Origin: Streptomonospora alba
GTDB taxonomy: Bacteria; Actinomycetota; Actinomycetes; Streptosporangiales; Streptosporangiaceae
Assembly (NCBI RefSeq): GCF_000826685.1
Contig: NZ_JROO01000027.1
Location: 124,001-188,000 of the forward strand
DNA length: 64,000 nucleotides
Direction: 5' to 3'
How positions within the stretch are numbered: position 1 is the stretch's first letter; every line of letters begins with the position of its first letter. Position numbers and translations under genes: made by a program. This document shows, piece after piece, positions 10,838 through 33,870 of the stretch. A model generated the notes under the pieces. That model was not told where the DNA came from and did not search any database. It worked only from the letters and a program-made list of their open reading frames with translations.

Positions 10838-11947
10838 TCACCCTCCGAGGTCGGCGACAGCTGCCACGGTGCCTCCGCCCGAGGGGCCCTGGTGGACCGC
10901 CGCGACCGAGACGAACACCGCCGGATCGCCGGTCACTCCGGCCGCGACGCCGCCGACGGTGGCCTTGATCTGCCGGTGCCAGTGCACGTCGGAGTCGTCG
11001 AGCATGATGTTGCGCCGCCCACGCACCCGCCCCGATGGGTCGGCCTCGCACTTGATGAAGACGTTGACCAACCGGTCGTCCAGATCGTCGGGGTGGGGGC
11101 GCTCGGGCAGGTCCACGCCTGCCGAGCGCACGGCCGACCAGATCCCGTCGGCGTCCAGAGCGTCGGCCATGACCCCGTGCCCGGCGCGGAACCTGCCGCC
11201 CACGCCGCGCGCGTTGCCCACCACCACGATCTGGGCCCGGTCCAGCTCCACACCGGAGGAGCAGGAGGCCACCGAGGAGTACAGGCTGAGGTCGGAGTGG
11301 ATCTGCTCGGCCGCGGGCTCCTCGATCTCGCCCAGCGCGGTGCCGATCCCCAAGGCGGTGGTGGAGTTGGAGATGTCCATCGACTTGAGCGTGTCCTCGG
11401 TGACCACGCTGTGGCCGCGCGACTTGGCGTCGTTGATGGTCCCCAGCACCAGCAGCGGAGTCTTGGTCTGCACGTAGTGCACGTCGGCGGGGTCGGTGAT
11501 CCCGGCCTCCCGCATCGCCGTGCGCACACCCGCGGCGACCTTGCGCACCATGGCCGGACGCCCGATGTCCTCGGGCAGGATCTCCTCGCTCATGGCGATG
11601 CCCACAGCCAGCCGCGGCTCGTCGGTGGGCGTGTAGCGCCCCTCGGGCGCGCGGGCGAAGACCGTGGCGTGCGGCGAGAGGACGCCGTCGGTGCCGCCCG
11701 ACCACACCAGCGGGACCTGCTTCACGGCCTCCTCGCTGCGGCTCCCCTTGTCCGTCAGCACCTCACGGAAGGCCCGGTCGGCAAGGATCCGGGTGTAGTC
11801 GTTGACACCGCCGTTGCCCTCGGTCTTGCCGATCACGGCCAGCACGTCGTCGGCGCGCACGGTGCCGTCGTCGATCAGCCGGGCCAGCCCGGACGCGTCC
11901 GTCACACTCTCGATCGCCACCTTGTGCACCTCGACGGGTGTGGGCAT
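10838..11947 (-). CDS. Ring-opening amidohydrolase, barbiturase/cyanuric acid hydrolase family
   Basis: 369 residues, the normal length for this small, structurally unique family, which hydrolyses barbiturate to ureidomalonate or cyanuric acid to carboxybiuret. The threefold Ser-Lys design can be read directly. K41 lies in [13 protein letters not shown] and S83 in [13 protein letters not shown]162 in QTKTPLL and S230/S231 in CSSGVELD; K299 in FIKCEAD and S347 in [13 protein letters not shown]. Residues 336-366 hold the family's glycine-rich C-terminal VGGV...[11 protein letters not shown] segment. ATG at 11947 follows AAAGAGGTGG. It is last in the hyuA-hyuB-carbamate kinase operon, 53 bases after the kinase. 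Its neighbours, a molybdenum hydroxylase and an AllFGH set, favour barbiturase over cyanuric acid hydrolase. Substrate choice is inference. Confidence 0.9.
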
Positions 11948-12000
11948 CTGGGTCCACCTCTTTCGTTGCGGAGTTCTCGGCTGCTGCTCGGGTCCGGGTT

Positions 12001-12939
12001 TCAGGGTTCGACGACGGTACCCGCCTGCCCGGCCAATCCTGCGGCGACACCGTCGAGTCCGGTGATGACGGCGCGCTGGCCGCCCGATTCCACGAACCGC
12101 ACGGCGGCCTCGACCTTGGGGCCCATGCTTCCCTCGGCGAACTGCCCGCCGAGGAGGTGGGCGCGCAGGTCGCCGGCGCGGATGCGCCCGATGGGACGGG
12201 CGTGGGACGTGCCGTAGTCGACGACCGCGTTGGGCACGTCGGTGGCGATCAGCAGGGCGTCGGCCCCCAGGGCGCACGCCATGAGGGCGGCGGTGCGGTC
12301 CTTGTCCAGTACGGCCTGCACGCCGTGCAGTCCGCCGGAGGCGTCGCGCGTCACGGGCACTCCGCCGCCGCCCGCGGCCACCGGCACCACGCCGGCGTCG
12401 AGCAGCGCGCGCACGGCGGGCGCATCGAGGATCTCGCACGGCTGGGGGGACGCCACCACGCGGCGCCAGCCGCGCTCTCCGAAGTCCACCCAGTCCTGTC
12501 CGAGGGCGGCCAAGCGCCGGGCCTCGTCTCGGGGTACATAGCGGCCGACCGGCTTGGCCGGCCTGTCGAAGGCCGGGTCGGCGGCGTCGACGAGCGTGCG
12601 TGTGACCACGGCGCTGACGGCGCGCTGCCGCCCGCGGCGGGCCAGCGCCGACTCCAGCGCGTTGGCGATGGTGAAGCCGATGGTGGCCTGGGTCTGCGCG
12701 CCGCACCAGTCGAGGGTGACCGGGGGGACCGTGTCGGCGGCCAGCTCGTTTTTGACCAGCAGGTTGCCGACCTGAGGACCGTTGCCGTGGGTGAGCACGA
12801 CCTCGGTGCCGGCGGCGACCAGGTCGGCGACGTGCTCCATCGCCGATGTGAGCGCGCTGCGCTGGTCGTCGGGGCGGGCGCTGCCGTCGGGGGCGGTCAT
12901 GGCGTTGCCGCCCAGGGCGATCACAACACGCGAAATCAC
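12001..12939 (-). CDS. arcC: Carbamate kinase
   Basis: 312 residues, full length for the amino-acid-kinase fold. It reversibly converts carbamoyl phosphate and ADP to ATP plus carbamate, which breaks down to ammonia and carbon dioxide. The N-terminus [12 protein letters not shown] is the phosphate-binding loop. [13 protein letters not shown] is the family signature, and [12 protein letters not shown] and [12 protein letters not shown] are the later nucleotide-site elements. GTG at 12939 overlaps the hyuB stop by four bases. Carbamate kinases in ureide catabolism (for example E. coli AllK beside AllFGH) run in the ATP-forming direction. No arginine deiminase or ornithine transcarbamylase gene is nearby, so a role downstream of the AllFGH-like genes at 30-34 kb fits best. 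Confidence 0.92.
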
Positions 12940-14822
12940 AGGCGATCGACCTCCGCGCTGTCCGCGCCGCCGGACAGGACGGGGTATCCGGGGCCGCGGT
13001 CGAAGAAGGGCGCGTCGTCGGGCCGGACGCGGCGCAGTTCGGCGCGCAGGCGCTCCACCTCGACCGCGTCGGTCCACGGATCGTCGCGGGGTCCCTCGAC
13101 GGGCACGCCGTAGTCGGCGCGGGCGGCCTCGCGGGAGACCTTTCCGCACCGCACATCGGCGACCACCGCGGCGGGGTCGCGTTCCAGCGGGTCGCCCCAT
13201 CCGCCGCCGCCGGTGGTGCGGATGCGGATGATCTCGCCCGCGCGCACCGGTTCGGCCTCGACCAGCCCGCCCGACTCGCGCTCATGGGGTCCGCCGGGGT
13301 CGATGGTCACCTGGAACGGCGCTCCGGCGCGGCCGCCCTTGACGCCCCAGCAGGAGAGGATGGAGCGGTCGGCGATGGACATGAACGACGCGTCGCGCAG
13401 CATCCGGATGTGCTTTTCGTAGCCCAGCCCGCCGCGGAACCTCCCTGCGCCGCCGGAGTCGGCAGCCAGGCCCAGCCTCTCGACGATGAAGGGGAACCGC
13501 GACTCGGTGAACTCGGTGGGCAGGTTGCGGGAGTCGGGCACCACGTGGATGGTGTCCTCGCCGTCGGCGTAGTGCCGCCCGCCGGAGCCGCCGCCCAGCA
13601 CCTCGCGCATGAGGTAGGGCTCGCCGTCGGTGCCGGTGCCGAAGACGCCGGTGTAGCGGATGGTCTCCTGGTCGGCGGGCATGTAGCCGTCCACGGCCTT
13701 GGCCAGAGCGCCGGCGAGCACGCCCAGCAGGCGCAGGATGACGAAGGTGCGCGCGTTGGTGGGCGCCGGGAAGACGGGCGTGAGCAGAGTGCCCTTCTCC
13801 GGAAAGCGCATCTCGATGAGCGGCACCACGCCCTCGTTGACGTCGAGTTCGGCCATGCGCTCCGGGGTGTCGGCGAGGTTGCGCAGGATCGGCGCCAGCC
13901 ACTTCTTGAGGAAGTTGCCGTCGGCGTAGTCGCCGCAGTGGTTGATGGGCCCTCGGGCCTGCGGCGAGGTGCCGGTGAAGTCGATGACCAGCCGGTCGGG
14001 CTCCTTGGTCAGCGTGATGCGCTGGCGGTGCAGCCGCGGCTCGTCGACGCCGTCGTGCTCGGCGTAGTCCTCCCACATGTAGGTGCCGTCGGGGATCTTG
14101 GCCAGGATCTCACGCCGGTAGGTCTCGGTGGTGGCCTCCAGCACGGCGTCGAAACTGCGCTCGACGGCGGCGCGGCCGTAGCGGTCGAACAGGTCGGCGA
14201 GCCGGCGAGCCCCCATCAGGCAGGCGGAGCATTCGGCGTCGAGGTCGGCCGCCAGCGAGTCGGGCATGCGGGAGTTGCGCACCATGATGCGCAGCGCGGC
14301 GCGGTTGGGCACACCCTGGTCCCACAGCTTGATCGGCGGGACCATGAGGCCCTCCTCGAACACCGAGGTCGCCTTGGGCGGCATGGATCCGGGGCAGGCG
14401 CCGCCGATGTCGTCGTGGTGGCCGAAGGCCTGCACGAACGCCACCACCTCGGGGCCCGAACCGTCGTCGTGGAATACCGGCACCGTCACGCACAGGTCGG
14501 GCAGGTGGCCGATGCCGCCCTCGGACTCGTACACGTCGTTGTGGAAGAACACGTCGCCGGGGCGCATGGTCTCAAGCGGGAAGTCGCGGGCGACGGGATG
14601 GACCAGGGCCGAGTAGGAGCGGCCGGTGAGCTTGCGCAGCCGCCGGTCGTGGATGCCTGCGCGGAAGTCGTGGGCGTCGCGGATCATGGGCGATCGGGAG
14701 GTGCGCGCGATCGCGGTCTCGACCTCCTTCTCCACCGACGCGAGGGTGCCTTCGACGATCTCGACCAGCACCGGGTCGGCCGGGGGCCGGTCGGCGGCCG
14801 TGGCAGCGGGGCCGTCGTTCAA
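12936..14822 (-). CDS. hyuB: Hydantoinase B / oxoprolinase-family subunit
   Basis: 628 residues, the B subunit of an ATP-dependent cyclic-amidase of the N-methylhydantoinase / 5-oxoprolinase / acetone carboxylase superfamily. Recognisable parts are [18 protein letters not shown] near the N-terminus, [26 protein letters not shown], the [16 protein letters not shown] loop and [17 protein letters not shown]. The TTG start overlaps the hyuA stop (TTGA), and GAGGAG lies just upstream. The stop overlaps the carbamate kinase start, so three genes are translationally chained. The subunit pairs with HyuA to open a ring or activate an amide or ketone with ATP. The substrate is unknown here; a cyclic ureide is likely given the neighbours. 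Confidence 0.9.
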
Positions 14823-16957
14823 CGCTGCGCCTCCTCGACTGCGGGCGGGGTATCGGCGGTGACGGCGAGACCGCCGTCGGGGTGCACGCGGGCGGTGAAC
14901 CCGGGGTGCAGAGGCAGGGTCGAGGCGTACTCCTCGATCACCGCGGGGCCCGAGACGGTCTGGCCGGGTGCGAGCAGGTCGCGCCGGTAGACCGGGGTGT
15001 CGGGGCAGACGGCGCCGTCGAAGCGGACGTCGCGCGCCCCGGTGCGCGCCCTCTCGGGGCCGCCCTCGCCGCCGGCGGTGAGGGGCCGCGGTTCGGGCCG
15101 GCGGATGCGGCCGATGCCGGTGACGCGCAGGTTGACCCACTCCACCTGCTGATTGGGATCGTCACGCAGGTCGTAGCCGTAGAGGTCGCGGTGTGCGGTG
15201 TGGAACTCCGCGGCGACCTCGTCGGCGGCAGCGGCGTCCAGCGGACCGGGCGGGACCGGCACCCGCACCTCGTAGGCCTGGCCGAAGTAGCGCAGGTCGG
15301 CGCTGCGCTCCAGGCGCATCCCGCCGACGCCGTCCTGACCGACCTCGTCGTCGAACCCCTCGTCTCGCAGGGACGCGGCCGCCTCGGCCGCGAGTTCGCC
15401 GAAGACGGACTCGGCCGCGCTCGCGTCCAGGTCTGCGTGGCGGGCGACGCGGGTGCGCACGTAGTCGTTGCGCACGTCCACGCTCAGCAGCCCGAACGCC
15501 GAGACGTTGGCGGGGTCGGGCGGCACGAACGCGCCCGCGGGGCCGAGGATGTCCAGCAGCGGGCACAGCAGCAGCGAGCCCGAGCCGCCGAAGGCCACCA
15601 GGTGGAAGTCGCGCACGTCCAGCCCGCGCTGGACGGTGACCTGGCGCAGGGCGTTGGCCTGGTTCCACGCCGAGATCCGCAGGATGCCCTCGGCGGTCTC
15701 GGCCGTGTCCATGCCCAGCTTGTGTCCCAGCCCGGCCAGGGCCTCCTGCGCGGCGGCGGCGTCCAGAGGCATCTCGCCCCCGAGCAAGTGCGGCGGGATG
15801 CGACCGAGGGCGGCGTGGGCGTCGGTGACGGTGGGTTCGGCGCCGCCCTTGCCGTAGCAGACCGGGCCGGGGTCGGCGCCGGCCGAGGCGGGGCCGACCT
15901 TGAGGGCGCCCTCCGGGGAGATGCGCGCGATGGATCCGCCGCCGGCGCCGACCGTGACGACGTCGATCATCGGGATCTTGGACGGGTGGCGGCCGACGCT
16001 GCCCTCGGTGGTCAGCCCGGGCTCGCCGTCGAGCACGACCGACACGTCGGTGGAGGTGCCGCCGCCGTCGAGGGTGAGGACGCGGTCGTAGCCGGCGCGC
16101 CCGGCCAGCAGGGCGGCGCCCAGCGCCCCGGCGGCCGGGCCCGACATCACCGTGCTGATGGGCTGGTTGACGACCTCCTCGGCGGAGAGCACACCGCCGT
16201 TGGACTTCATCACCAGAAACGGCGGGCGCCCGCCGCCGGCGCCGAGCCCGGCCTGCTCCAGGCGCGCGGCGATGCCGCCGATGTAGCGGGCGACTCCGGG
16301 TTTGACGGCGGCGTCGACGAGGGTGGTCATGGAGCGCTCGTACTCGCGGTACTCGCGCAGCACCTCCGAGCTGATGGAGACGGTCGCCCCGGGGTGTTCG
16401 GCACGCAGGATCTCGCGCAGCCGGCGCTCGTGTGCGGGGTCGGCGTAGGAGTGCAGCAGGCACACGCCGATGGTGTCGATGCCGCGGTCGCGGAACCAGC
16501 GGGCGGCCTCAGCGGCCTGGTCCTCGTCCAGGGGCCGGATCTCGGCGCCGGTGTGGTCGAGTCTGCCGCCGACGGTGCGCACCAGGTCGGCGGGCACGAT
16601 CCGCTCGGGCTTCACCCAGAAGTAGGAGTTGCCGTAGCCGTCGGGCACTGCTTGGCGGGCGATCTCCAAGATGAACTCGTAGCCCTCGGTGGTGATGAAT
16701 CCGAGCGGGCCCGTCTCGCCTTCCAGCAGCAGGTTGGTGGCCACGGTGGTGCCGTGGCACAGGGCGCTGACCTCGGTCTGGGCGCCCAGCAGGTCGAGGG
16801 CCTTGGCGGCGCCGTCCATGAATCCGGCGGAGGGGTCGGCGGGTGTCGACGGGGTCTTGGTCGCCAGCAGCGCTCCGGTGGCCTCGTCGAGTGCCACGAC
16901 GTCGGTGAAGGTGCCGCCGGTGTCGATGCCGATGCGGACTCTGCGCTGCCCTGCCAT
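14819..16957 (-). CDS. hyuA: Hydantoinase A / oxoprolinase-family subunit
   Basis: 712 residues, full length for the ATP-binding A subunit. RRVRIGIDTGGTFTDVVALD at residues 5-24 is the ASKHA-fold phosphate loop. ALCHGTTVATNLLLEG is the second conserved loop, and GRAGYDRVLTLDGGGTSTDVSVVLDG the third nucleotide-binding element. The C-terminal third carries the family's DLYGYDLRDDPNQQVEWVNLRVTGIGR segment. It is the first gene of a leftward operon, followed by hyuB, carbamate kinase and the ring-opening amidohydrolase, with overlaps at the first two junctions. ATP hydrolysis would drive opening of a five- or six-membered ureide ring. Alternative activities in the superfamily (5-oxoproline, acetone or acetophenone carboxylation) cannot be excluded by sequence alone. 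Confidence 0.92.
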   Translation of the reverse strand: MAGQRRVRIGIDTGGTFTDVVALDEATGALLATKTPSTPADPSAGFMDGAAKALDLLGAQTEVSALCHGTTVATNLLLEGETGPLGFITTEGYEFILEIARQAVPDGYGNSYFWVKPERIVPADLVRTVGGRLDHTGAEIRPLDEDQAAEAARWFRDRGIDTIGVCLLHSYADPAHERRLREILRAEHPGATVSISSEVLREYREYERSMTTLVDAAVKPGVARYIGGIAARLEQAGLGAGGGRPPFLVMKSNGGVLSAEEVVNQPISTVMSGPAAGALGAALLAGRAGYDRVLTLDGGGTSTDVSVVLDGEPGLTTEGSVGRHPSKIPMIDVVTVGAGGGSIARISPEGALKVGPASAGADPGPVCYGKGGAEPTVTDAHAALGRIPPHLLGGEMPLDAAAAQEALAGLGHKLGMDTAETAEGILRISAWNQANALRQVTVQRGLDVRDFHLVAFGGSGSLLLCPLLDILGPAGAFVPPDPANVSAFGLLSVDVRNDYVRTRVARHADLDASAAESVFGELAAEAAASLRDEGFDDEVGQDGVGGMRLERSADLRYFGQAYEVRVPVPPGPLDAAAADEVAAEFHTAHRDLYGYDLRDDPNQQVEWVNLRVTGIGRIRRPEPRPLTAGGEGGPERARTGARDVRFDGAVCPDTPVYRRDLLAPGQTVSGPAVIEEYASTLPLHPGFTARVHPDGGLAVTADTPPAVEEAQR

Positions 16958-19558: not shown

Positions 19559-19637
19559 GCAAGGGTAACGCTGTCACGCCCCTCACAGTTCCATCCGGCC
19601 GACCGAGATTGCGGAGATCGGGCCGGAAGGCTCCCGC

Positions 19638-19666
19638 GAGCCCGCGGCACGCGGGCCGGCGGGCTC
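19638..19666 (-). terminator. Hairpin at the end of the conservon-type GTPase gene
   Basis: GAGCCCGC (19638-19645) pairs with GCGGGCTC (19659-19666). The stem overlaps the GTPase stop codon and leads into the secA2 promoter gap. Confidence 0.5.
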
Positions 19667-20267: not shown

Positions 20268-20627
20268 GTGGATCTCGGCTCCCTCACGACGCTGGGCCAA
20301 ATCAGGGGGTTCGTAGCGGACCCTGTCAGACGATGCGAAAAACGCCTGCGGCTACGGAGATGCGGGTCGGCGGTGGCTTTCGCACACCTCGGAGCGAACC
20401 TAGCACCGCCCGGCGGCGCCAGGTGACCGGTTGACTACCGAAGCAGATTACGAGAGAGCGACAACGTGGAGAAATACGTCCTGAATCGCCGGTTCCCGGG
20501 GCTTCTCCATGATCCGGGCTGTGCGCACACGCGTGCGCCACCCCGGATGGAGCCGCGAGCCCGGGCGGGCCGACGCGGCCGGAGTGGCGCACACGATGCC
20601 CGCGGCACGCCCGGCGCCGCGGGGGAT
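20268..20627. other. Intergenic region between GTPase and coxG
   Basis: About 360 bases, AT-richer than the surroundings between 20320 and 20490, suggesting a leftward promoter for the GTPase gene. TAGGTT (complement of 20397-20402) is a possible -10 element, but no -35 at the right distance was found. No gene is seen. Confidence 0.4.
20599..20623 (-). terminator. Hairpin after coxG
   Basis: CCCGCGGC and GCCGCGGG form an eight-base stem with a nine-base loop, just past the coxG stop. It marks the likely end of the permease-molybdenum hydroxylase operon. Confidence 0.55.
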
Positions 20628-23860: not shown

Positions 23861-24447
23861 GGGCGGCCTCCCTCCGTTCGGGGCGCCGCGGCGGTGGCGT
23901 CGCCCGCGGCGCCGTCGTGTTCGGCGGACGGGCGCGCGTGGGGCACGCCGGCGCCGCCGTCCTGCTCGCGGGTGATCTCCGCGGTGCGCAGCACGGCGTT
24001 GACTATGTTCTGGTAGCCGGTGCAGCGGCAGAGGTTGCCGGTGACGGCCTCTCGGGCGTCCTCCTCGTCCGGAGCGGGGTTGTCGCGCACGTAGGCGGCG
24101 ACCAGAGTGAGGAAGCCCGGTGTGCAGAAGCCGCACTGAAGCGCGTGGCACTCGCCGAACGCCTGTTGCGCCGGATGGGGCGTGCCGTCGGGCGCGGCCA
24201 GGCCTTCGACGGTGGTGATGTCGTCGTGCTGGGCGGCACTGACGGCCAGCATCAGGCAGGAGCGCACCGGCCGGCCGTCGACGAGGACGGTGCAGGCGCC
24301 GCAGACCCCGTGCTCGCAGCCGACGTGGGTGCCCGTGAGCCCCAGGTCGTGGCGCAGGCAGTCCGACAGCAGGCGGCGGGCGGGCACGCGGGCGGTATGC
24401 GGAATCCCGTTGACGCGCAACCGGATGTCGTGCTGTTCCTCGGTCAT
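23857..24447 (-). CDS. Molybdenum hydroxylase iron-sulfur subunit
   Basis: 196 residues with two [2Fe-2S] sites. The plant-ferredoxin-type cluster uses C44, C49, C52 and C64 (VGCEHGVCGACTVLVDG...SC). The second uses C105, C108, C140 and C142 (CGFCTPGFL...NLCRCTGYQNIV). It passes electrons from the molybdenum centre to FAD. The C-terminal 35 residues are a hydrophilic tail rich in Ala, Gly and Asp beyond the usual domain length of about 160. ATG at 24447 overlaps the FAD-subunit stop (ATGA) and its own stop overlaps the large-subunit GTG, so the three subunits are translated as a chain. Confidence 0.94.
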   Translation of the reverse strand: MTEEQHDIRLRVNGIPHTARVPARRLLSDCLRHDLGLTGTHVGCEHGVCGACTVLVDGRPVRSCLMLAVSAAQHDDITTVEGLAAPDGTPHPAQQAFGECHALQCGFCTPGFLTLVAAYVRDNPAPDEEDAREAVTGNLCRCTGYQNIVNAVLRTAEITREQDGGAGVPHARPSAEHDGAAGDATAAAPRTEGGRP

Positions 24448-25337
24448 CGGTCGGCTCCGGTGTAGGCGGCGGAGGCGGACGCGGCGGCGGACGCCTGGGC
24501 GAGTGCGCGCCCGGTGAGCACCCGCGCCAGGTGGCGGCGATAGTCGGCGCCGGCGTGGATGTCGTCGTCGGGGTCGGTGCGCTCGGCGGCGACGGCGGCG
24601 GCCTCGTCGATCTCGTCGGTCTGGGCGCCGCCTCCGGCGAGCTGCGGAGTCAGGTCGACGACGAGGGGCACGGGGGCGACGGAGATCAGGCAGCACCGGG
24701 CCCGGGTGACGCGCCCGTCGGCGCCGAGGGTGACCGCCGCGGCGGCGCCGCACAGGGCGTAGTCGCCGTGGCGGCGGCTGATCTCGACGAAGGCGGTCCC
24801 GGTGCCGGGCTCGGGGCGCGGGAACCGGGCGGCCGTCGCGATCTCTCCCGTGGCCAGCGCCGTCTCCATGGGTCCGGTGATGAACTCGGCCGCGGGCACC
24901 GTGCGGGTGCCCGCCGGACCGCGCACCTCGACGGCGCCGTCCAGCAGCGCGAGCACGGCGGGCATCTCGGCGGCCGGGTCGGCGTGGACGATGCTGCCGA
25001 CGGTGGTGCCCCGGTTGCGGATGACCGGGTGGGCCACCAACCGCAGACCTTGGCCCAGCAGCGGAACGGCCTCGGCCGCGGCGGTGTCGGCCTCCAGTTG
25101 CGCGTGGCGCACCAGGGCACCCACGCGCACGCCGTCGGCGTCGACCTCGACACCGCCGAGCCCGGCGACCCGGTTGAGGTCGACCAGGACGCTGGGCGCG
25201 GCCAACCGCATGTTCAGCAGTGGGATCAGGCTCTGCCCGCCGGCCAGGGCCTTGCCTTCGGCGCCCGCCTCGGCCAGCAGGCCGACGGCCTCGTCCGGAT
25301 CGGTGGGCGCATGGTAGGCGAACGGCGGTGGCTTCAC
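24444..25337 (-). CDS. Molybdenum hydroxylase FAD-binding medium subunit
   Basis: 297 residues, the CoxM/XdhB-type flavoprotein subunit that takes electrons from the iron-sulfur clusters. ALAGGQSLIPLLNMRLA near residue 33 is the first FAD-binding loop, and RGTTVGSIVHADPAAEMPAV the second. The C-terminal CO_deh_flav_C domain spans about 175-290. GTG at 25337 follows AAGGAG. It starts the run of overlapping subunit genes, 60 bases after the permease. No XdhC/CoxF-type maturation factor or MobA-like protein is in the window, so insertion of the sulfurated cofactor must rely on genes elsewhere. Confidence 0.92.
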   Translation of the reverse strand: MKPPPFAYHAPTDPDEAVGLLAEAGAEGKALAGGQSLIPLLNMRLAAPSVLVDLNRVAGLGGVEVDADGVRVGALVRHAQLEADTAAAEAVPLLGQGLRLVAHPVIRNRGTTVGSIVHADPAAEMPAVLALLDGAVEVRGPAGTRTVPAAEFITGPMETALATGEIATAARFPRPEPGTGTAFVEISRRHGDYALCGAAAAVTLGADGRVTRARCCLISVAPVPLVVDLTPQLAGGGAQTDEIDEAAAVAAERTDPDDDIHAGADYRRHLARVLTGRALAQASAAASASAAYTGADR

Positions 25338-25397: not shown

Positions 25398-26891
25398 TCA
25401 GGTGCCGGCGGCGCCCCCTTGACGGTCTTCCTTCCCGGTATCGGCGCCGCCACCGGCCTCGGTTTCGCTGTACTCGCCGGTCACGGTGTCGGCACCGCTG
25501 CCGAGCACGATCCCGGCGCCGGCGTCCGACTCGCCCGTCCCGGCTCCGTCGCCGTCGGGCGCCGGCGTCGGCCGCATGCTGGGCGGCGCCAGGCGATACA
25601 GCAGGTGGTATCCCACGAGGATGATGATCGTTCCCAGGGCGATGCCCTCCAGCGAGAAGCCCTCGGTGATGGTCAGGCTGACACCGCCGATGCCGGCGAT
25701 CAGGCCGGCCGCGAGGGGCACGAGCACGATCGGGTTGCCGAAGTCGACGCGGTTCTCCACCCAGATCTTGGCGCCGAGCAGGCCGATCATGCCGTAGAGC
25801 ACGACGGTGATGCCGCCGAGGACGCCGGCGGGGGTGGCGGCGACGAGTTCGCCGAACTTGGGGCACAGCCCGAAGAGGATCGCCACGATCGCGGCCACGT
25901 AGTAGGCGGCGGTGGAGTAGACGCGGGTGGCGGCCATGACGCCGATGTTCTCGGCGTAGGTGGTGGTGGGCGAGCCGCCGACCGAACTGGCGACGGAGGT
26001 GGCCAGTCCGTCGGCGAAGATGGCGCGGCCCATGTAGGGGTCGAGGTCGTCGCCGGTCATCTCCTGCACGGCCTTGACGTGGCCGGCGTTCTCGGCGATG
26101 AGCGCGATGACGGCGGGCAGCGCGACGAGCACGGCCGAGCCCTCGAAGGCGGGGGCGTGGAAGTCGGGCAGACCGATCCATGCGGCGTCGCCCACGGCGC
26201 TGAGATCGACCCGCGGTGCGGCGCCGCCGCCCTCGCTCTCGGGCAGCGGCGCGGCGCCGAGGACGAGGTCGAACACCCACGACAGCACGAAGCCGAAGAC
26301 CAGGCCCAGCAGGATGGTGATACGGCCGAGGAAGCCGCGCAGCAGCACTGTGGCCAGGACGACGAAGGCCATGGTGAGCAGGCCGGTCCACTGGTCGAAG
26401 GGCCAGTAGTTGTCGGCCACCACGGGGGCGAGGTTGAAGCCGATGAGCATCACGACCGCGCCGGTGACCGCGGGCGGGAAGGCGGCCATCACGGCCTTGG
26501 GGCCGAGCAGGTGGATGGCGATGCCGGAGAGGGCAAGCGCCAGACCGGCGACCAGGATGGCGCCGGTGAGCAGGGCCGGGTTGCCCCCTTCGGGCGAGAT
26601 GGCGACCGACGCGGCCACGAAGGAGGCGCTGGTGCCCAGGTAGCTGGGCACCCTGCCTTGCACGATGAGCAGGAACATGATGGTGGCGACGCCCGACATC
26701 ATGATCGCCAGGTTGGGGTCCAGGCCCATGATGATCGGGAAGACGAACGTCGCACCGAACATGGCGACGACGTGCTGGGCGCCGAGACCCGTGGTGCGCC
26801 CCCAGGAGAGGCGCTCCTGGGGCCGGACCACCTCTCCGGGAGGCGGCGCGCTGCCGTCTCCGTAGAGCTTCCACCGCAAGCCGAGGTTCAC
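25398..26891 (-). CDS. Nucleobase:cation symporter-2 family permease (uracil/xanthine type)
   Basis: 497 residues and about 12-14 membrane helices. GLGAQHVVAMFGATFVFP opens the transport domain, where Q.V.AMFGAT is the NCS2 first-helix motif. ALIAENAGHVKAV supplies the conserved Glu, and SVGGSPTTTYAENIGVMA is the NAT signature region with the second Glu. KVDFGNP-like VENRVDFGNPIVLVPLAAG resembles RutG/UraA-type pyrimidine permeases more than purine ones. About 65 hydrophilic C-terminal residues are rich in Gly, Asp and Thr. GTG at 26891 is chosen because GGAGG stands six bases upstream; a longer ATG start at 26957 is possible. It heads the operon encoding the molybdenum hydroxylase, so it likely imports that enzyme's substrate. 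Confidence 0.9.
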   Translation of the reverse strand: MNLGLRWKLYGDGSAPPPGEVVRPQERLSWGRTTGLGAQHVVAMFGATFVFPIIMGLDPNLAIMMSGVATIMFLLIVQGRVPSYLGTSASFVAASVAISPEGGNPALLTGAILVAGLALALSGIAIHLLGPKAVMAAFPPAVTGAVVMLIGFNLAPVVADNYWPFDQWTGLLTMAFVVLATVLLRGFLGRITILLGLVFGFVLSWVFDLVLGAAPLPESEGGGAAPRVDLSAVGDAAWIGLPDFHAPAFEGSAVLVALPAVIALIAENAGHVKAVQEMTGDDLDPYMGRAIFADGLATSVASSVGGSPTTTYAENIGVMAATRVYSTAAYYVAAIVAILFGLCPKFGELVAATPAGVLGGITVVLYGMIGLLGAKIWVENRVDFGNPIVLVPLAAGLIAGIGGVSLTITEGFSLEGIALGTIIILVGYHLLYRLAPPSMRPTPAPDGDGAGTGESDAGAGIVLGSGADTVTGEYSETEAGGGADTGKEDRQGGAAGT

Positions 26892-28069: not shown

Positions 28070-28080
28070 CGCACGCCCCG

Positions 28081-28109: not shown

Positions 28110-28190
28110 GCCACGGGCGCGCGGGGGCGACCGGCGCGTCGGAGCGCACCCCGCTGCCCGCCCGATCGGTGGTGCGGCTGCGCCCGGGAC

Positions 28191-29906
28191 TCAGCCGCGG
28201 AGGTCGTGCATGCGTACCGCTCTGAGGGCGACGAGGAGGTTCAGGCGCAGGTGGGGGTCGGTGGAGAAGGGGCCCAGCATGCGTTCGAGCTTGCCGATGC
28301 GGTAGCGCAGCGTGTTGTAGTGGAAGTGCAGCAGCCGCGCCGTCTCGGCGACGTTGAGGTTGTTGTCCAGGAGCGTCTCCAACGTGGTGCGGAGATCGTC
28401 CTTCTCGGGCGAGCCGGTCTCGGCGAGCTCGCCCAGCGTCTCGGCGATGAAGGAGCGCAGCTCCGCGGTGTCGGGGATCTGGCTGAGCAGCCGGTAGACG
28501 CCCAGGTCGTCGAACTCGGCCACCGAACCCGGCCCGTTCATGCGCCGGCCGACGCGTGCGGCCTGGCGGGCCTGCTCGTACGCGCGCGGCAGCTCACCCG
28601 GGGCCGCGGCCACCCGGCTGATTCCGGTGGTGAACGGGCGCCGCCCGCCTCCCCCGTCGCCGGCGACCTGGGCGATCACCGATCGCACCCGCGGTCCGAC
28701 GCCGCCCCCGCCGCCGTCGGCGCCCAGCAGCACCACGACCTCCTGGCTGTAGCCCACGACGACGGCTCCCGGGTCGCGTTCGCGCACCACCATGCTCCAG
28801 GCGCCGGCGAAGCGCTCGTGGGCGGGGCGCAGCTCGCCGGCCGCCGGCACCGGCGCGCCGGCCTCACCGTCGAGTTCGGCCACCACGGCCACCAGCGGGC
28901 GGTCGATGTCCCACCCCAGACTGGCGCAGTGGCGGATCACGTGCTCGTCGCCGCCCGCGTTTCCGGCGAGCAGATCGCGCAGGAAGTCGCCCTGGTACTT
29001 GCCCTCCACCGCCGACACCGCCAGGTCCCGGGTGATGACCAGGGCGGCGGTCGCCGCGGCGCGCTCCAGCAGGTGCACGTCGGCGGCCTCGGCGCTGCGG
29101 CCGCGGGTGATCAGCACGACGCGGCCGTGGTCGAGGCTCCCGGCGAGGACGGGCACCTGCACCACGCGGGGGTCCTCGTCGTCCAGCGCGCGGGCGCCGT
29201 GCTTGAAGTGCTCCACCTGGAACCGGCCCCCGGAGGGGTCGAAGAAGCGCGGGTCGGCCAGCACCTCCTCGTCCATGCCCGATCGGGCCAGCACGCGGCC
29301 GTCGGGCGTGGTGACCATGACGCTGCCGTCCAGCAGCTCGGGCAGCTTCTCCGCGATCGCCGCCAGCCCTCCCCCGGCCAGGATGACGTCGACCAGGACG
29401 CGGTGCACCTCCTCCGCGCGCGCAAGCGTGGCGGCCTGGCGGTTGATGATGTCGGTGAGCAGCTGGTTGAGCACGTCGTCGAAGGCCACCGCGCCGCTCA
29501 GCCGCAGCAGCGGCAGCCCGAGGGAGTCGGCGGTGCGCAGCACTTCGTCGGGCAGGGTGTCGACGTAGCGGCCGAGCTTGATGGCGACCGCGGCCAGCCC
29601 CCGCTCGTCGAGGTCGCGCACCAGCCCGGCCAGATCGCCTGCGCTCTGCAGCGGATAGCCCGTCGTCAGGAGCAGCTCGTGGGGCTTGACCCAGGGCAGT
29701 ATGTCGGGGACCTCCATGACGTTGAGCCGCTGGATCACCCGGTCCAATCCGGTCGCACCGGCCAGCACCTCGGTGCCCGCCAGGCTCGACAGGCTCAGTG
29801 CGTCGGCCACCGAAAGACCACGCGCCAACGTGCTCGCCGAATGCACGTGGTCGGCGCTCGGCAGATCCTGTCCAGCTCGGGACCCATCGTTGGCAACGTT
29901 TTCCAT
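28191..29906 (-). CDS. pucR: PucR-family transcriptional regulator
   Basis: 571 residues. The PucR N-terminal sensory domain spans about 30-155 (LSVADALSLSSLAGTEVLAG...LPWVKPHELLLTTGYPL). A GGDEF-like middle domain of the CdaR type follows, then a C-terminal HTH_30 domain at about 515-565 (DNNLNVAETARLLHFHYNTLRYRIGKLERML). PucR homologues control purine, ureide or amino-acid use, often in response to a pathway intermediate. It is divergent from allH with only 77 bases between starts and should control that operon; the permease and hyuA operons are further candidates. ATG at 29906 is chosen; the open frame extends further but lacks coding character. A palindrome lies in its first codons. Confidence 0.9.
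   Translation of the reverse strand: MENVANDGSRAGQDLPSADHVHSASTLARGLSVADALSLSSLAGTEVLAGATGLDRVIQRLNVMEVPDILPWVKPHELLLTTGYPLQSAGDLAGLVRDLDERGLAAVAIKLGRYVDTLPDEVLRTADSLGLPLLRLSGAVAFDDVLNQLLTDIINRQAATLARAEEVHRVLVDVILAGGGLAAIAEKLPELLDGSVMVTTPDGRVLARSGMDEEVLADPRFFDPSGGRFQVEHFKHGARALDDEDPRVVQVPVLAGSLDHGRVVLITRGRSAEAADVHLLERAAATAALVITRDLAVSAVEGKYQGDFLRDLLAGNAGGDEHVIRHCASLGWDIDRPLVAVVAELDGEAGAPVPAAGELRPAHERFAGAWSMVVRERDPGAVVVGYSQEVVVLLGADGGGGGVGPRVRSVIAQVAGDGGGGRRPFTTGISRVAAAPGELPRAYEQARQAARVGRRMNGPGSVAEFDDLGVYRLLSQIPDTAELRSFIAETLGELAETGSPEKDDLRTTLETLLDNNLNVAETARLLHFHYNTLRYRIGKLERMLGPFSTDPHLRLNLLVALRAVRMHDLRG
29888..29898. promoter_or_regulatory. Palindrome in the first pucR codons, possible autoregulatory site
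   Basis: CGTTG-G-CAACG is a perfect 5-1-5 inverted repeat located in codons 3-7 of pucR, next to the shared pucR/allH promoter gap. A looser pair, CGACG and CGTCG, lies at 29911 and 29933. Either may bind a dimeric regulator; this is pattern evidence only. Confidence 0.35.
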
Positions 29907-29983
29907 GGGTCGACGATAGCCCTCGCCCGTAGCGTCGCTTGCGGGTCCACCCGGACACACGGTGGCGCGAAGGGAGGGGTGCC

Positions 29984-30901
29984 ATGGCAGCCGGTACGCC
30001 GTGCGCCGCGGGATCCGCCTCCGCCACGGCCGGGATCCCGCCCGCACGCGCCCGTGCCGCAGGGCGCTCCTGGCCTGCGGCGGCCTCTTCCGCGGTTTAT
30101 GACATTGTGAGCGGCCCATTTCGGCCGTCGCGAATACTGGGCGGTTCGCGTCTGGCGGTCTACCTTGAAGTCGAGGGCCCGCACGAGGCGACGGTGATCG
30201 CTCTCCTGGCACGAGACGCCGTCCGGTTGCCCAACGGGCTGGTCCTCGTCGGCACGCAGAGCGTGGGGCCGTTCGCCGACGTCGCCTCGGCGACGTCGGT
30301 CCGCATCGGTCGATGCTCCGCGGTGTTCGACGGCCCCACCGGCCCGTGTACCGTCCGCGCGGGCCGGTGGTGGCGTCCTCCGACACCGCGCGCCCCCCGC
30401 CCCGAGCACCTCGCCGCGGCGACGGCCGAACTGGACCGGGCCCTGCGCGGCGTCTCCGGCGGCCTGCCCGCCGACGCCGCCGCCCTCGACGGGGACCTCT
30501 CCCGCGCGGGCGCCGCCGAGGAAGCCTGCGCGCGGCTCGTCGGGCGCGGCCCCGGCCTCACCCCCAGCGGCGACGACCTGCTCTGCGGCTACCTGCTGGC
30601 CGCCCGCCACCTCGGCGCACCGCAGGCGGCCGAGGCCGTGGCAGCCGCCGCGGCGCAGGCCGCGACGGCCACCACCGCTCTGTCGGCCGACCTGTTGCGC
30701 CACGCGGCCGCCGGGCGCGCCTGCCCGCAGGCCGTGCACGTGCTCGACGCGCTCTCCGGCCGCGCCCCGTTGCCGCCCGCCCTGGAGGAGCTGCGCGGCA
30801 TCGGACACACCTCCGGCACCGATCTGGCCCTGGGACTGCTGGCCGGCGCCCGCGCAGCGCTGGGAAGCAGCGGGGCCCACACCACAGGGAGCGCTCTATG
30901 A
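29984..30901 (+). CDS. allH: DUF2877 protein, AllH-like subunit of a ureido-acid transcarbamylase
   Basis: 305 residues. After a low-complexity Ala/Arg start, the DUF2877 domain runs from about 40 to the end. LVGRGPGLTPSGDDLLCGYLLAAR is its hallmark glycine/aspartate loop, and HTSGTDLALGLLAGARAAL the C-terminal motif. In E. coli the homologue (ylbF, renamed allH) is one of three genes needed for oxamic transcarbamylase, which converts oxalurate and phosphate to oxamate and carbamoyl phosphate. GGGAGGGG precedes the ATG at 29984. It is the first gene of the operon, and its stop overlaps the fdrA start (ATGA). Order here is H-F-G; in E. coli it is F-G-H. The likely substrate in this organism is discussed under findings. 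Confidence 0.85.
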   Translation: MAAGTPCAAGSASATAGIPPARARAAGRSWPAAASSAVYDIVSGPFRPSRILGGSRLAVYLEVEGPHEATVIALLARDAVRLPNGLVLVGTQSVGPFADVASATSVRIGRCSAVFDGPTGPCTVRAGRWWRPPTPRAPRPEHLAAATAELDRALRGVSGGLPADAAALDGDLSRAGAAEEACARLVGRGPGLTPSGDDLLCGYLLAARHLGAPQAAEAVAAAAAQAATATTALSADLLRHAAAGRACPQAVHVLDALSGRAPLPPALEELRGIGHTSGTDLALGLLAGARAALGSSGAHTTGSAL

Positions 30902-32385
30902 CCACGGAACCGGCGACCGCGATGCGGGTGGAGGTGCGCAAGGGCGCCTACCGCGACTCGGTGGCGCTGATGCGCGTCACGCGCGAGGTGGCGGCCGTAC
31001 CCGGGGTCGAGGCGGCGCTGGTGGCCATGGCCACCGACCTCAACCTGGGCATCCTCGCCGACATGGGCGGCGTCGCGCCCGAGGGCACCGGGCCCGACGA
31101 CCTGCTGATCGCGGCGCGGGCGGCCGACGACGCGGCACTGGCGAGCGCGCTGGCCACCGCCGAGACCGAGCTGGCGGCGATGTCGGCGGGCGGAGACGGG
31201 GCCGCGCCCGCCGACGTGCCGCCGCGCACGCTGCGCACCGCCGCCCGGCAGGCGCAGGCGCAGGGGACCCCGGCCACGCTCGCGCTGGTGTCGGTGCCCG
31301 GACGCTACGCCGCAGCCGAGGCCTTCGACGCGCTGGAGGCCGGGCTGGACGTGCTCGTCTTCAGCGACAACGTGCCCGTCGAGCAGGAAGTGGCGCTCAA
31401 ACGCACCGCCGAGGAGCTGGACCGGCTGGTCATGGGCCCTGACTGCGGCACCGCCATGGTGGGCGGCGCCGGGCTGGGCTTCGCCAACGCCGTGCGACCG
31501 GGCCCGGTGGGCGTCGTCGCGGCCTCGGGCACCGGAGCGCAGCAGGTGATGTGCCTGCTGGATGCGGCCGGGGTGGGCACCAGCCACTGCCTGGGCGTGG
31601 GGGGACGCGACCTGTCGGCAGCGGTCGGCGGCGCCTCCACGCGCCGGGCGCTGCGGATGCTCGACGAGGACCCGGGCACCGAGCGCATCGTGCTCGTGTC
31701 CAAACCGCCGGCGCCGCAGGTGGCCGAGGAGGTGCGCCGGCTGGCCGAAGGGCTCCGGACCCCTGTGCACACGGTGCTGGCGGGCACCGAGGGCTCCGAC
31801 ATCACCGCGGCCGTGGCCGACGTCGTCGCCGCCGCGGGCGGCAGTGTGCCGCGGTGGCCGTCCTGGCTGCCCGTCCAGACGCCGCCCGGGCGCACCGGAG
31901 CCCTGCGCGGACTCTTCTGCGGCGGCACGCTGGCCCAAGAGGCCGCCGCCGTGGCCTCCGGCACGCTCGGCCCCGTCGCCTTCGGCGGCGATCCCGCCGG
32001 TCCCGAGGCTGGCGGGCACCTGGTGATCGACTTCGGCGACGACGCGTTCACCCTCGACCGGCCGCACCCCATGATCGACCCGGCCGCGCGCACCGAGCGC
32101 TTCGCCGCCGAGCTCGCCGACCCCGCCGTCGCGGCGGTACTGGCCGACGTCGTGCTGGGCCACGGCGCCCACCCCGACCCGGCGGCCGGCCTGGTCGAGG
32201 CGCTGGCCAAGGCCGACCCGCGGCGACCGCACGCGGTGGTCTCGCTGTGCGGCGCGGCCGGTGACAGCCAAGGACGCGACGAGCAGGCCGAACGGCTGCG
32301 CCGGGCGGGCGCCGAGGTCTACGGCTCCAACTCCGCGGCGGCCCGCCGCGCGGCCGCCCTGGCCGCCGGCGCGGAGCCCGCCTGA
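30898..32385 (+). CDS. allF: FdrA/AllF family protein (acyl-CoA-ligase-like)
   Basis: 495 residues. It contains two Rossmann-like domains of the succinyl-CoA synthetase alpha type. VFSDNVPVEQEVALK at 154-168, MGPDCGTAMVGGAGLGFAN from 179, VVAASGTGAQQVMCLLD from 206 and GVGGRDLSAAVGG at 233-245 are the family's phosphate and nucleotide-like loops. RPHPMIDP near residue 385 is the conserved C-terminal motif. The E. coli homologue FdrA (AllF) is a required part of oxamic transcarbamylase. Translation is coupled to allH by a four-base overlap, and allG follows after 54 bases. It probably carries part of the active site that transfers a carbamoyl group to phosphate. The biochemical role of each subunit is not settled. 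Confidence 0.92.
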   Translation: MTTEPATAMRVEVRKGAYRDSVALMRVTREVAAVPGVEAALVAMATDLNLGILADMGGVAPEGTGPDDLLIAARAADDAALASALATAETELAAMSAGGDGAAPADVPPRTLRTAARQAQAQGTPATLALVSVPGRYAAAEAFDALEAGLDVLVFSDNVPVEQEVALKRTAEELDRLVMGPDCGTAMVGGAGLGFANAVRPGPVGVVAASGTGAQQVMCLLDAAGVGTSHCLGVGGRDLSAAVGGASTRRALRMLDEDPGTERIVLVSKPPAPQVAEEVRRLAEGLRTPVHTVLAGTEGSDITAAVADVVAAAGGSVPRWPSWLPVQTPPGRTGALRGLFCGGTLAQEAAAVASGTLGPVAFGGDPAGPEAGGHLVIDFGDDAFTLDRPHPMIDPAARTERFAAELADPAVAAVLADVVLGHGAHPDPAAGLVEALAKADPRRPHAVVSLCGAAGDSQGRDEQAERLRRAGAEVYGSNSAAARRAAALAAGAEPA

Positions 32386-32439
32386 TGGCGCCGGGAGCCG
32401 TTCCCACCACCGTGGCACGCAGCCGAAAGGCAGGATGAG

Positions 32440-33870
32440 ATGAGCACGTCCCGACTCCTCACCGACGATCCCGTGGTGGCGGCCTCCGGCGCCCGGCTGC
32501 TGTCGGAGGCGCTGGCTGCGCAGGCCGTCCCGGTCTCCGACGCGGAGTTCCACCCGCCCATGGCCGCGCCCGACGGCACGGACACCGCCGCGGAGCTGGT
32601 GCGCGTGCTGGCCGACCCGCGCCGAGCCGCCGCCAACGCCGAGGCCGCGCGCCGCATGCTGGCGGTGCGGCCGCAGCTGGTGGACGTGCGTCCGGCCGAC
32701 GAGGCGCTGGGCCTGCGTCCCGGCTCCTTCCTGCACGCCGGCCCGCCGGTGGACTGGGGGAGCGCCTCGGGCCCGCTGCGCGGTGCGCTGATGGGCGCGA
32801 TGGTCTTCGAGGGGCTCGCCGACACCCCCGAGCAGGCCGAGGCCGAGCTGCGGCGCGGCGGCGCGGACCTGGAGCCCTGCCACCACCGCGGCGCCGTGGG
32901 CCCCATGGCAGGCGTGGTCAGCCCGTCGATGTGGGTGTTCGAGCTGTCCGACGCCGACACCGGCCGCCGCTCGTGGTGCTCGCTCAACGAAGGGCTGGGG
33001 GCGGTCCTGCGCTACGGCGCCTACGGCCCCGAGGTCATGGATCGCCTGCGCTGGATGTCGCGGGTGCTGGGACCGCTGCTGCGCGACGCGGTGCGTTCCC
33101 ACGGCCCTCTCGACATCGGCGCGATCCTGGCGCAGATGCTGCAGATGGGGGACGAAGGCCACAACCGCAACCGCTCGGGCACGCTGATGCTGCTGCGCTC
33201 GCTGCTGCCCGACCTGCTCTCCGGCGACGCGCCCGCCTCCGACGTCGCGGCCGCGGCCGACTTCATCGGCGGCAACGACCACTTCTTCCTGAACCTGGCC
33301 ATGCCCGCCGCCAAGCTGATGGCCGACGCCGCCCGCGGCGTTCCCGGCTCCAGCGCGGTGGTGGCGATGGCGCGCAACGGTACGGAGTTCGGCATCCAGG
33401 TCTCCGGCTGCGGCGACCGGTGGTTCACCGCGCCCGCGGAGATGCCCGACGGCCTGTTCCTGGGCTCCTTCGGGCCCGAGGACGCCAACCCCGACATCGG
33501 CGACTCCACCATCACCGAGACCTGCGGACTGGGCGGCTTCTCCATGGCCACCGCCCCGGCGATCGTGCGCTTCGTCGGCGGCGACGCCGGGTTCGCGCTG
33601 CGCACCACGCGCCGCATGTACGAGATCACCCTGGCCGAGAACCCGGCGTTCCAGCTTCCCGTCCTGGACTTCCGCGGCGCCCCCACGGGCATCGACGTGA
33701 CCCGGGTCGTGCGCACCGGCATCCTGCCGCAGATCAACACCGGCATGGCCGGGCGGGAGCCCGGCACCGGCCAGGTCGGCGCGGGCTTGGTCACCCCGCC
33801 CGCCGAGTGCTTCACCGCGGCGCTGTCGGCGCTCGCCGCCGAGGCCCCCGGCCTGCCGGCGGCCGGGTAG
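32440..33870 (+). CDS. allG: DUF1116 protein, AllG-like subunit
   Basis: 476 residues, full length for DUF1116. Conserved-looking stretches include RPQLVDVRPADEALGL, the CHHRGAVGPMAGVVSPSMWVFEL segment, LQMGDEGHNRNRSGTLML, FIGGNDHFFLNLAMPAAKLM and NGTEFGIQVSGCGDRWF. The E. coli homologue ylbE (allG) works with AllF and AllH in transcarbamylation. The enzyme has no active-site model that I can apply residue by residue, although the His/Asn/Asp-rich GHNRNRSGT and GGNDHFFLN loops look like a ligand site. AAGG lies about 12 bases before the ATG, after a 54-base gap. It is the last gene of the operon. Confidence 0.9.
   Translation: MSTSRLLTDDPVVAASGARLLSEALAAQAVPVSDAEFHPPMAAPDGTDTAAELVRVLADPRRAAANAEAARRMLAVRPQLVDVRPADEALGLRPGSFLHAGPPVDWGSASGPLRGALMGAMVFEGLADTPEQAEAELRRGGADLEPCHHRGAVGPMAGVVSPSMWVFELSDADTGRRSWCSLNEGLGAVLRYGAYGPEVMDRLRWMSRVLGPLLRDAVRSHGPLDIGAILAQMLQMGDEGHNRNRSGTLMLLRSLLPDLLSGDAPASDVAAAADFIGGNDHFFLNLAMPAAKLMADAARGVPGSSAVVAMARNGTEFGIQVSGCGDRWFTAPAEMPDGLFLGSFGPEDANPDIGDSTITETCGLGGFSMATAPAIVRFVGGDAGFALRTTRRMYEITLAENPAFQLPVLDFRGAPTGIDVTRVVRTGILPQINTGMAGREPGTGQVGAGLVTPPAECFTAALSALAAEAPGLPAAG

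Follow-up and report, generated by a model that had tools for sequence, protein, structure and literature searches.

Which ureide would be split by an AllF-AllG-AllH carbamoyltransferase that is encoded beside a barbiturase, and what would the organism gain from this reaction? The question is raised by a gene cluster of Streptomonospora alba, located at positions 10838-33870 of the stretch of DNA that was analyzed (64,000 nucleotides, referred to here as the window). The initial annotation had proposed that the three proteins act on ureidomalonate, so that oxidative pyrimidine breakdown would yield ATP.

Gene content and conservation of the cluster

Pfam and NCBIfam scans together with gene calling recovered in this span every gene that the initial annotation had named. 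The reverse strand encodes a barbiturase of the AtzD/TrzD "Toblerone" family (10838..11947; PF09663, 495.6 bits), a carbamate kinase (12001..12924), HyuB (hydantoinase/oxoprolinase B subunit, 12936..14822; PF02538, 471.6 bits), and HyuA (ATP-dependent-type hydantoinase/oxoprolinase A subunit, 14819..16957; PF01968, PF05378). On the same strand are a CoxG-like protein (20628..21305; PF06240, 94 bits), the large (21302..23860; PF02738/PF20256), [2Fe-2S] (23857..24447; PF01799, PF00111), and FAD (24444..25337; PF00941, PF03450) subunits of a Mo-hydroxylase, an NCS2 nucleobase permease (25398..26891; PF00860), and a PucR-type regulator (28191..29906; PF07905, PF17853, PF13556). The permease is nearest to RutG/uracil permease models (TIGR03616 RutG, 383 bits, below the model cut-off of 758). 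On the forward strand, AllH (DUF2877, 30107..30901; PF11392, 95.6 bits, cut-off 25), AllF (FdrA, 30898..32385; PRK06091 FdrA, 370.5 bits, below the cut-off of 433), and AllG (DUF1116, 32440..33870; PF06545, 309.8 bits) are adjacent, and thus all three subunit families by which an oxamic transcarbamylase is recognized lie side by side. The best PDB match of AllF is FdrA (3dmy), with succinyl-CoA synthetase alpha next, a likeness that gives no hint on the substrate. According to gene calling, HyuA and HyuB, the Mo-hydroxylase subunits and CoxG in a chain, and AllH and AllF overlap by 4 bases, which points to an operon-like arrangement. The span also holds genes for SecA2 (17231-19543), a PF03029 GTPase (19665-20300), and an LPMO (27341-28069), which the initial annotation did not mention; they were rejected as members of the system, and none of them is clustered in genome G045, which has the most compact related cluster.

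Ten related regions were fetched whole. All of them contain barbiturase, HyuA, HyuB, CoxG, the three Mo-hydroxylase subunits, and the permease, and the gene caller found PucR, carbamate kinase, AllF, and AllG in nine of the ten each. Because the same genes recur across these regions, their grouping is not due to chance. The related clusters additionally carry an amidase or nitrilase (nine of ten), a CoA-transferase III, and a fused AccD/AccA carboxyltransferase, which would suit malonamate and malonate as downstream metabolites. In the window genome, homologues of the amidase (59% identical), the CoA-transferase (63%), and the carboxyltransferase (71%) are encoded outside of the cluster, while an ortholog of the nitrilase is absent from that genome (best match only 29% identical). 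Judged from the sequences, the amidase of the window genome adjoins an apparent amino-acid permease and cobalamin-type genes, without pathway context. In another genome (G093), an amidase of the cluster type lies near AtzD-like genes although AllG is absent.

Identity of the enzymes

That the AtzD-family enzyme belongs to the barbiturase family was confirmed and could be narrowed to barbiturase itself. The best PDB match is 5hwe, named "Barbiturase" (573 bits, versus 328 for the highest-scoring cyanuric acid amidohydrolase), and its residues N194/H324/K328/V348/A349 correspond to the signature Asn194/His324/Lys328/Val348/(Ser or Ala)349 that was described for barbiturases in the PF09663 family (PMC3758960). 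The cyanuric acid hydrolase signature (Arg195/Thr321/Arg325/Gly345/Gly346) is not present. With 475 bits against a cut-off of 360, the NCBIfam model NF052395 would make the enzyme a cyanuric acid amidohydrolase; cyanuric acid catabolism was nevertheless rejected, as both the residue signature and the relatives are of the barbiturase type. By sequence, the prediction of barbiturase activity is firm.

The carbamate kinase passes the curated model NF009007 (281.2 bits, cut-off 266) but not TIGR00746 (323 bits, cut-off 358). The large subunit of the Mo-hydroxylase is a predicted uracil dehydrogenase. True CO dehydrogenase large subunits carry an AYXCSFR active-site loop, whereas the corresponding loop is PYRGAGR in all 11 clusters. 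An aerobic CO dehydrogenase was thus rejected, despite a score over the cut-off of NF040766 (1426 bits). For HyuA the best PDB match is the N-methylhydantoinase 7hk5, and HyuB exceeded the cut-off of no equivalog model. Caprolactamase was rejected (485.9 bits against 1000 for HyuA and 187.8 against 1000 for HyuB), and so was acetophenone carboxylase, whose models gave even lower scores.

Co-occurrence of AllG with barbiturase and its relation to allantoin

The co-occurrence check that the initial annotation had suggested was carried out on 296 genomes from 114 genera of the organism's class (Actinomycetes), and it was clearly passed. AllG is encoded in 72 genomes and an AtzD/barbiturase gene in 67, with both in 61, AllG only in 11, and AtzD only in 6 (odds ratio 201, Fisher p 1.6e-44). 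The association also appears among the 114 genera (30 with both, 8 and 6 with a single gene, 70 with neither; p 1.8e-14) and within the window's own family (13 with both, 1 with barbiturase only, 0 with AllG only, 14 with neither; p 7.5e-7), although all of these p-values overstate independence because the genomes are related. Among 35 named barbiturase genomes, at least 3 of which are also part of the 296, AllG is found in 34; Marinactinospora thermotolerans has a barbiturase without AllG. The two genes share a contig in 37 of the 61 double positives, at most 50 kb apart in 30, and the diverging layout is identical in all 37. Some positives are weak, namely G051 (divergent AllG only), G020 (partial AllG), G023 (barbiturase fragment), and G209 (split barbiturase). 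G068 has a second, divergent AllG. The four genomes in which the AtzD-like protein shares no more than 32-41% identity with that of the window all lack AllG, a further reason for rejecting cyanuric acid catabolism.

Carbamate kinase is over the cut-off in 64 of the 72 AllG genomes, and in 54 of the 67 genomes with an AtzD/barbiturase gene it lies at most 3 kb from that gene; six double positives have none over the cut-off (G020, G023, G131, G200, G209, and G241). A kinase in a barbiturase operon would require a source of carbamoyl phosphate, and among the proteins of the cluster only AllFGH would be a candidate for this role.

As E. coli AllFGH cleaves oxalurate (PMC11326118), the proteins may have kept this role, with oxalurate formed from allantoin via ureidoglycolate, and may stand beside barbiturase only as part of a set of PucR-controlled nitrogen-scavenging genes. 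The initial annotation stated that no allantoin gene is present, which holds within the window but not for the genome, where another contig (C28) encodes uricase, allantoinase, and allantoicase. Such a pathway had been named beforehand as one half of what would speak against ureidomalonate as substrate, the other half being activity on oxalurate only. However, glyoxylate carboligase and 2-hydroxy-3-oxopropionate reductase are encoded alongside, which directs the route on C28 to glyoxylate and not to oxalurate. AllD, which forms oxalurate in E. coli, is over the cut-off in none of the 296 genomes (51 weaker matches); the window genome has an AllD-like dehydrogenase below the cut-offs (247.6 against 496.2 bits, and 256 against 356 bits for NF011599). 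AllG is not associated with allantoicase in the survey (odds ratio 1.01, p = 1.0), and 41 of the 61 double positives lack allantoicase. Moreover, the 37 barbiturase-linked AllG sequences form a clade of their own (support 99/95) apart from E. coli AllG, whose exact placement is unsure because of its long branch and with which the window AllG does not group. A retained oxalurate role is therefore considered improbable. The positions that separate this clade (97, 165, 245, 341, 342, 446, and 453 of the window AllG) are candidate specificity determinants, and ureidomalonate is the predicted substrate of the window AllG.

The alternative that AllFGH splits an N-carbamoyl acid delivered by HyuAB (e.g., oxalurate from parabanate or the 5-methyl analogue from thymine), with barbiturase forming a parallel branch, draws on the presence of HyuAB in all ten fetched clusters and on the kinship of HyuA with N-methylhydantoinase. 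It is unlikely, if slightly less so than the oxalurate role, since carbamate kinase mostly adjoins barbiturase, the downstream genes that recur in related clusters are of the malonate type, and of 80 named barbiturase loci only 2 gave a match for HyuA and 5 for HyuB, within flanks limited to 10 kb. We consider it least probable of all that a ureidomalonase, perhaps an amidase, releases malonate and urea while AllFGH does something else. Malonic acid and urea have been described as the products of a route through barbiturase and ureidomalonase (Soong 2001, cited in PMC3758960), and the amidases or nitrilases of the fetched clusters could serve this step, but carbamate kinase and AllFGH would be left unexplained, and no urease alpha was found in the window genome. 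Urease-free organisms might use urea through urea carboxylase.

Proposed pathway and comparison with known systems

We thus favor, with a probability of about 70%, the reading of the cluster as an energy-conserving oxidative pyrimidine pathway in which a predicted phosphorolysis replaces the urea-releasing step. The gene families, the barbiturase signature, the co-occurrence, the conserved layout, and the homologues elsewhere in the genome were observed directly; we infer every substrate and the order of the steps. Uracil would be imported by the permease and oxidized to barbiturate by the Mo-hydroxylase (with CoxG), after which barbiturase would open the ring to ureidomalonate. AllFGH would then most likely phosphorolyse this N-acylurea to malonamate and carbamoyl phosphate, from which carbamate kinase would form ATP, NH3, and CO2. 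An amidase could release the second nitrogen from malonamate, and the CoA-transferase and fused carboxyltransferase could convert malonate to malonyl-CoA and acetyl-CoA, with the homologues outside of the cluster as the putative enzymes in the window genome. The pathway first proposed is thus favored by the co-occurrence, the barbiturase identity, and an AllG tied neither to allantoicase nor to a cut-off-level AllD, while the allantoin pathway and the AllD-like dehydrogenase of the genome count against it, as does the conserved HyuAB, for which the scheme offers no function.

If this reading is true, oxidative pyrimidine catabolism would end in a gain of ATP and not in the loss of urea, genes would be supplied for steps around barbiturase that are unassigned in the literature surveyed, the recently identified carbamoyltransferase family would have a new substrate, and names in many actinomycete genomes would need correction. 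A wider reading, which taken as a whole we hold to be evenly poised between right and wrong, is that AllF-AllG-AllH proteins are N-acylurea phosphorolases and not oxalurate enzymes as such, whose ureide-producing partner differs by lineage (AllD for E. coli, a barbiturase for actinomycetes, and hydrolases of the biuret type for nitrifiers as well as some other actinomycetes). For the actinomycetes considered here, the oxidative breakdown of pyrimidines would accordingly be a form of substrate-level phosphorylation; their "oxamate carbamoyltransferases" would be misnamed ureidomalonate phosphorolases, and their "group 5 CO dehydrogenases" misnamed uracil dehydrogenases.

Judged by the genomes, there is strong evidence that the cluster represents a new variant on two systems already known. 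The open-licence PMC literature contained no paper that treats barbiturase together with carbamate kinase, and none that links it to fdrA, allFGH, oxamic transcarbamylase, or oxamate carbamoyltransferase. The source organism of the oxidative pyrimidine pathway is reportedly Rhodococcus erythropolis. That pathway, which runs through uracil dehydrogenase, barbiturase, and ureidomalonase (Soong et al., cited in PMC3758960), shares the barbiturase signature, the Mo-hydroxylase, and the nucleobase permease with the window, but proceeds by hydrolysis to urea and malonate, whereas phosphorolysis with a gain of ATP is predicted here. The cyanuric acid pathway shares the AtzD enzyme family; the specificity signature of the window enzyme is, however, barbiturase-type, and scans of the cluster detected no AtzE-, AtzF-, or BiuH-type genes. 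With the E. coli AllFGH-AllK system (PMC11326118), the cluster has in common the three subunit families, a carbamate kinase, and an N-acylurea chemistry leading to carbamoyl phosphate. The window AllG is 47% identical to E. coli AllG but lies outside of its part of the tree, the kinase is placed with barbiturase instead of with AllFGH, the subunit order is AllH-AllF-AllG instead of AllF-AllG-AllH, a cut-off-level AllD is missing, and the predicted substrate is one CH2 longer. In nitrifiers, too, AllFGH and carbamate kinase occur together in a ureide cluster that lacks upstream purine genes; their allFGHK, read by the authors as oxalurate degradation, lies beside biuret/triuret hydrolase genes (PMC12625717), whereas the partner in the window is barbiturase.

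Gene content and enzyme identities

The window (73% GC; contig C32:124001-188000) comes from a genome of 5.9 Mb in 110 contigs, and all genes named in the initial annotation were recovered by Pfam and NCBIfam scans and by a simple GC3-based gene caller, whose start codons are approximate. The minus-strand genes are, in listed order, PucR, the permease, the FAD, FeS, and large subunits of the Mo-hydroxylase, CoxG, HyuA and HyuB (hydantoinase/oxoprolinase subunits), carbamate kinase, and barbiturase (10838-11947), with an LPMO gene between permease and PucR. To the right of this block, AllH-AllF-AllG (AllG at 32440-33870) lie on the plus strand. Two minus-strand genes interrupt the cluster between CoxG and HyuA (17231-20300), one for a PF03029 GTPase and one for a SecA2 of the mycobacterial type; SecA2 homologues are also found in barbiturase loci (L103, L163) of Murinocardiopsis, near HyuA, and Bailinhaonella. 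Downstream of AllG come genes for a histidyl-tRNA synthetase and for two STAND/LuxR-type regulators (33986-35305, 35531-37963, and 38187-40715), an arrangement also seen after AllG in G180 (L189:2055-8946), with identities of 81%, 45%, and 50% to the window.

The AtzD-family (PF09663) enzyme of the window exceeds the NCBIfam cut-off for cyanuric acid amidohydrolase (475 bits vs 360); its top PDB match is 5hwe, "Barbiturase" (573 bits), and the best cyanuric acid amidohydrolase there scores 328. In Peat et al. (PMC3758960), Asn194, His324, Lys328, Val348, and Ser/Ala349 are given as the barbiturase signature. The aligned window sequence reads N, H, K, V, and A at these positions, and the full signature is present in 124 of 130 AtzD-family alignment rows, some genes being entered twice. 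Four genomes (G031, G093, G100, and G122; one G093 protein is duplicated) account for the six other rows, three with a cyanuric-hydrolase signature and three with a mixture, and these divergent proteins are 32-41% identical to that of the window, against at least 69% for the other proteins in the identity comparison.

The large subunit of the Mo-hydroxylase (21302-23860) matches NF040766, named aerobic CO dehydrogenase "group 5". This name is probably wrong for the group, as all 11 cluster large subunits carry a PYRGAGR loop and none the AYXCSFR active-site loop of true CO dehydrogenases. Uracil dehydrogenase would be the natural role.

Co-occurrence and layout of AllG and barbiturase

The expectation that AllG and the barbiturase family co-occur was borne out: among 296 genomes of the window's class, AllG (PF06545) is encoded by 72 and PF09663 by 67, with both in 61, AllG only in 11, PF09663 only in 6, and neither in 218. 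Weak rows scored as positive here include G051 (its sole AllG divergent, at 202 bits), G020 (partial AllG), G023 (a 25-position barbiturase fragment), and G209 (barbiturase in two pieces). Without the four genomes with divergent AtzD proteins, AllG accompanies PF09663 in 61 of 63 genomes, the two lacking it being G206 (Marinactinospora thermotolerans) and G014 (72% complete). The double-positive genomes span 13 families. The pattern holds for genera (both in 30 of 114, AllG only 8, PF09663 only 6; p 1.8e-14) and within the window's family (both 13, barbiturase only 1, neither 14; p 7.5e-7), with p-values that overstate independence because the genomes are related. AllG was also found in 34 of 35 searchable genomes of a second, named sample (36 chosen for genus spread among the top 80 loci by similarity to barbiturase), which overlaps the first by at least G206, G055, and G259. 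The M. thermotolerans barbiturase (L092, L120), ~86% identical to that of the window, is adjoined by a CYP152-like P450 gene scoring below the model's cut-off.

Both genes share a contig in 37 of the 61 double-positive genomes, less than 50 kb apart in 30 and farther (90 kb to 1.7 Mb) in 7, and in all 37 they are divergently oriented. Ten regions of this kind were retrieved in full, with contents taken from our own gene caller and clustering. Barbiturase, HyuA, HyuB, CoxG, the three Mo subunits, and permease are found in all ten; carbamate kinase (not in G241), PucR and AllF (neither in G158), and AllG as a separate gene in nine each; and AllH, which is short and divergent, in five. The most compact region, G045, has the PF06545 and PF09663 matches 18 kb apart with cluster genes between, and SecA2, GTPase, and LPMO were not detected in it. 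In G275 (L081:11008-13809), alone among 12 genomes compared, AllF and AllG form a single 933-aa open frame without a stop between them, an apparent natural fusion, the alternative being a stop lost by sequencing error; if genuine, it would support both working as one enzyme.

Carbamate kinase (NF009007) passes the cut-off in 77 of 296 genomes and in 64 of the 72 AllG genomes, and is missing at that level from 6 of the 61 double-positive ones. Of the 67 PF09663 genomes, 54 have a match less than 3 kb from the barbiturase-family gene, with G020 and G051 included on the strength of sub-cut-off pieces. Allantoicase (PF03561; 94 of 296) is independent of AllG, occurring in 23 of the 72 genomes with AllG and in 71 of the 224 without it (odds ratio 1.01, p = 1.0). 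AllD, the oxalurate-forming enzyme of E. coli (TIGR03175), passes its cut-off in none of the 296 genomes, with weaker matches in 51, and in one of 14 control genomes, presumably E. coli. The earlier statement that allantoin genes are absent from the window holds. Elsewhere in the genome, a group on contig C28 joins the genes for uricase, allantoinase, and allantoicase to those for glyoxylate carboligase and 2-hydroxy-3-oxopropionate reductase and to a hydroxypyruvate-isomerase-like gene, in a pathway that runs to glyoxylate. The window's AllG is the only one of its genome, contig C13 encodes an AllD-like dehydrogenase scoring under the cut-off, and a search of the genome for the urease alpha subunit found none.

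A proposed route from ureidomalonate to ATP

Oxalurate and ureidomalonate are N-acylureas of a short carboxylic acid, one CH2 apart. The place of carbamate kinase within the barbiturase operon suggests that its carbamoyl phosphate derives from the barbiturase's product, and AllFGH is the sole candidate in the cluster for making it; together, these point to phosphorolysis of ureidomalonate followed by ATP formation. AllFGH would convert ureidomalonate and Pi to malonamate and carbamoyl phosphate, from which ATP would be made. PMC11326118 gives the E. coli reaction as oxalurate + Pi <-> oxamate + carbamoyl phosphate, and barbiturase with ureidomalonase is described as yielding malonate and urea (Soong 2001, as cited in PMC3758960). 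In the open-licence PMC papers searched, no link of barbiturase to AllFGH or carbamate kinase was found. As a guess, HyuAB may open a ring that barbiturase refuses, e.g., 5-methylbarbiturate from thymine.

Nine of the ten regions contain either an amidase (PF01425 type; G045, G237, G126, and, by looser clustering, G019) or a nitrilase-type hydrolase (PF00795 type; G102, G158, G217, G241, and, by looser clustering, G275), never both, and G030 has neither. G093, too, carries an amidase of the cluster type close to its divergent AtzD genes. Among 98 PF09663 loci (94 barbiturase-type and 4 divergent, at least one genome counted twice), a family III CoA-transferase is nearby in 25 and a fused AccD/AccA carboxyltransferase in 19. 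Actinomadura macra (L105) has the order AllG, one opposite gene, permease, nitrilase, CoA-transferase, carboxyltransferase, carbamate kinase, and barbiturase. With their presumed substrates, these enzymes match the needs of malonamate and malonate breakdown. Malonamidase E2 is a distant relative of the amidase (E 4e-25), which has many closer ones, and the CoA-transferase scores under every equivalog cut-off among the models matched. The window genome encodes an amidase 59% identical to that of G045 (contig C52) and, on C18, a CoA-transferase 63% identical to that of G045 adjoining a carboxyltransferase that shares 71% identity with the G102 enzyme; a search of it for a nitrilase ortholog found none.

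The AllG family and its other contexts

In a tree of 47 AllG sequences (46 from the class, window included, and E. coli), the 37 rows from double-positive genomes, of 61, group with G108 (a MAG of 80% completeness) in a single clade (support 99/95), outside which fall E. coli AllG and eight AllG from genomes without PF09663, with exact places unsure on long branches (E. coli, G290, and others). Absent from the tree are G167 and G220 (without PF09663), the divergent G051 AllG, the second G068 AllG, and the unfetched AllG of the remaining double-positive genomes. The window's AllG is 61-78% identical to barbiturase-linked AllG and 47% to that of E. coli. Its closest relatives are in G180 and G028, with several other families closer than most of its own; those of the window's barbiturase are mostly from its own family. 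These differing relatives hint at partly separate histories of the two cluster halves.

Two genomes (L083, L088) have a divergent AllG with a common neighbour set, in L088 ComA-like, Lyase_1, PLP-dependent, and radical SAM genes, which represents another context for the family. Three further loci (L082:7023-11595, L087:6146-11126, and L090:7152-11723), from genomes with AllG and without PF09663, carry AllF-AllG-carbamate kinase next to an isochorismatase-family hydrolase and resemble the biuH-allFGHK clusters described in nitrifiers. In nitrifier genomes, according to PMC12625717, allFGHK adjoins biuret/triuret genes without upstream purine genes, a context that fits a wider N-acylurea role of AllFGH.
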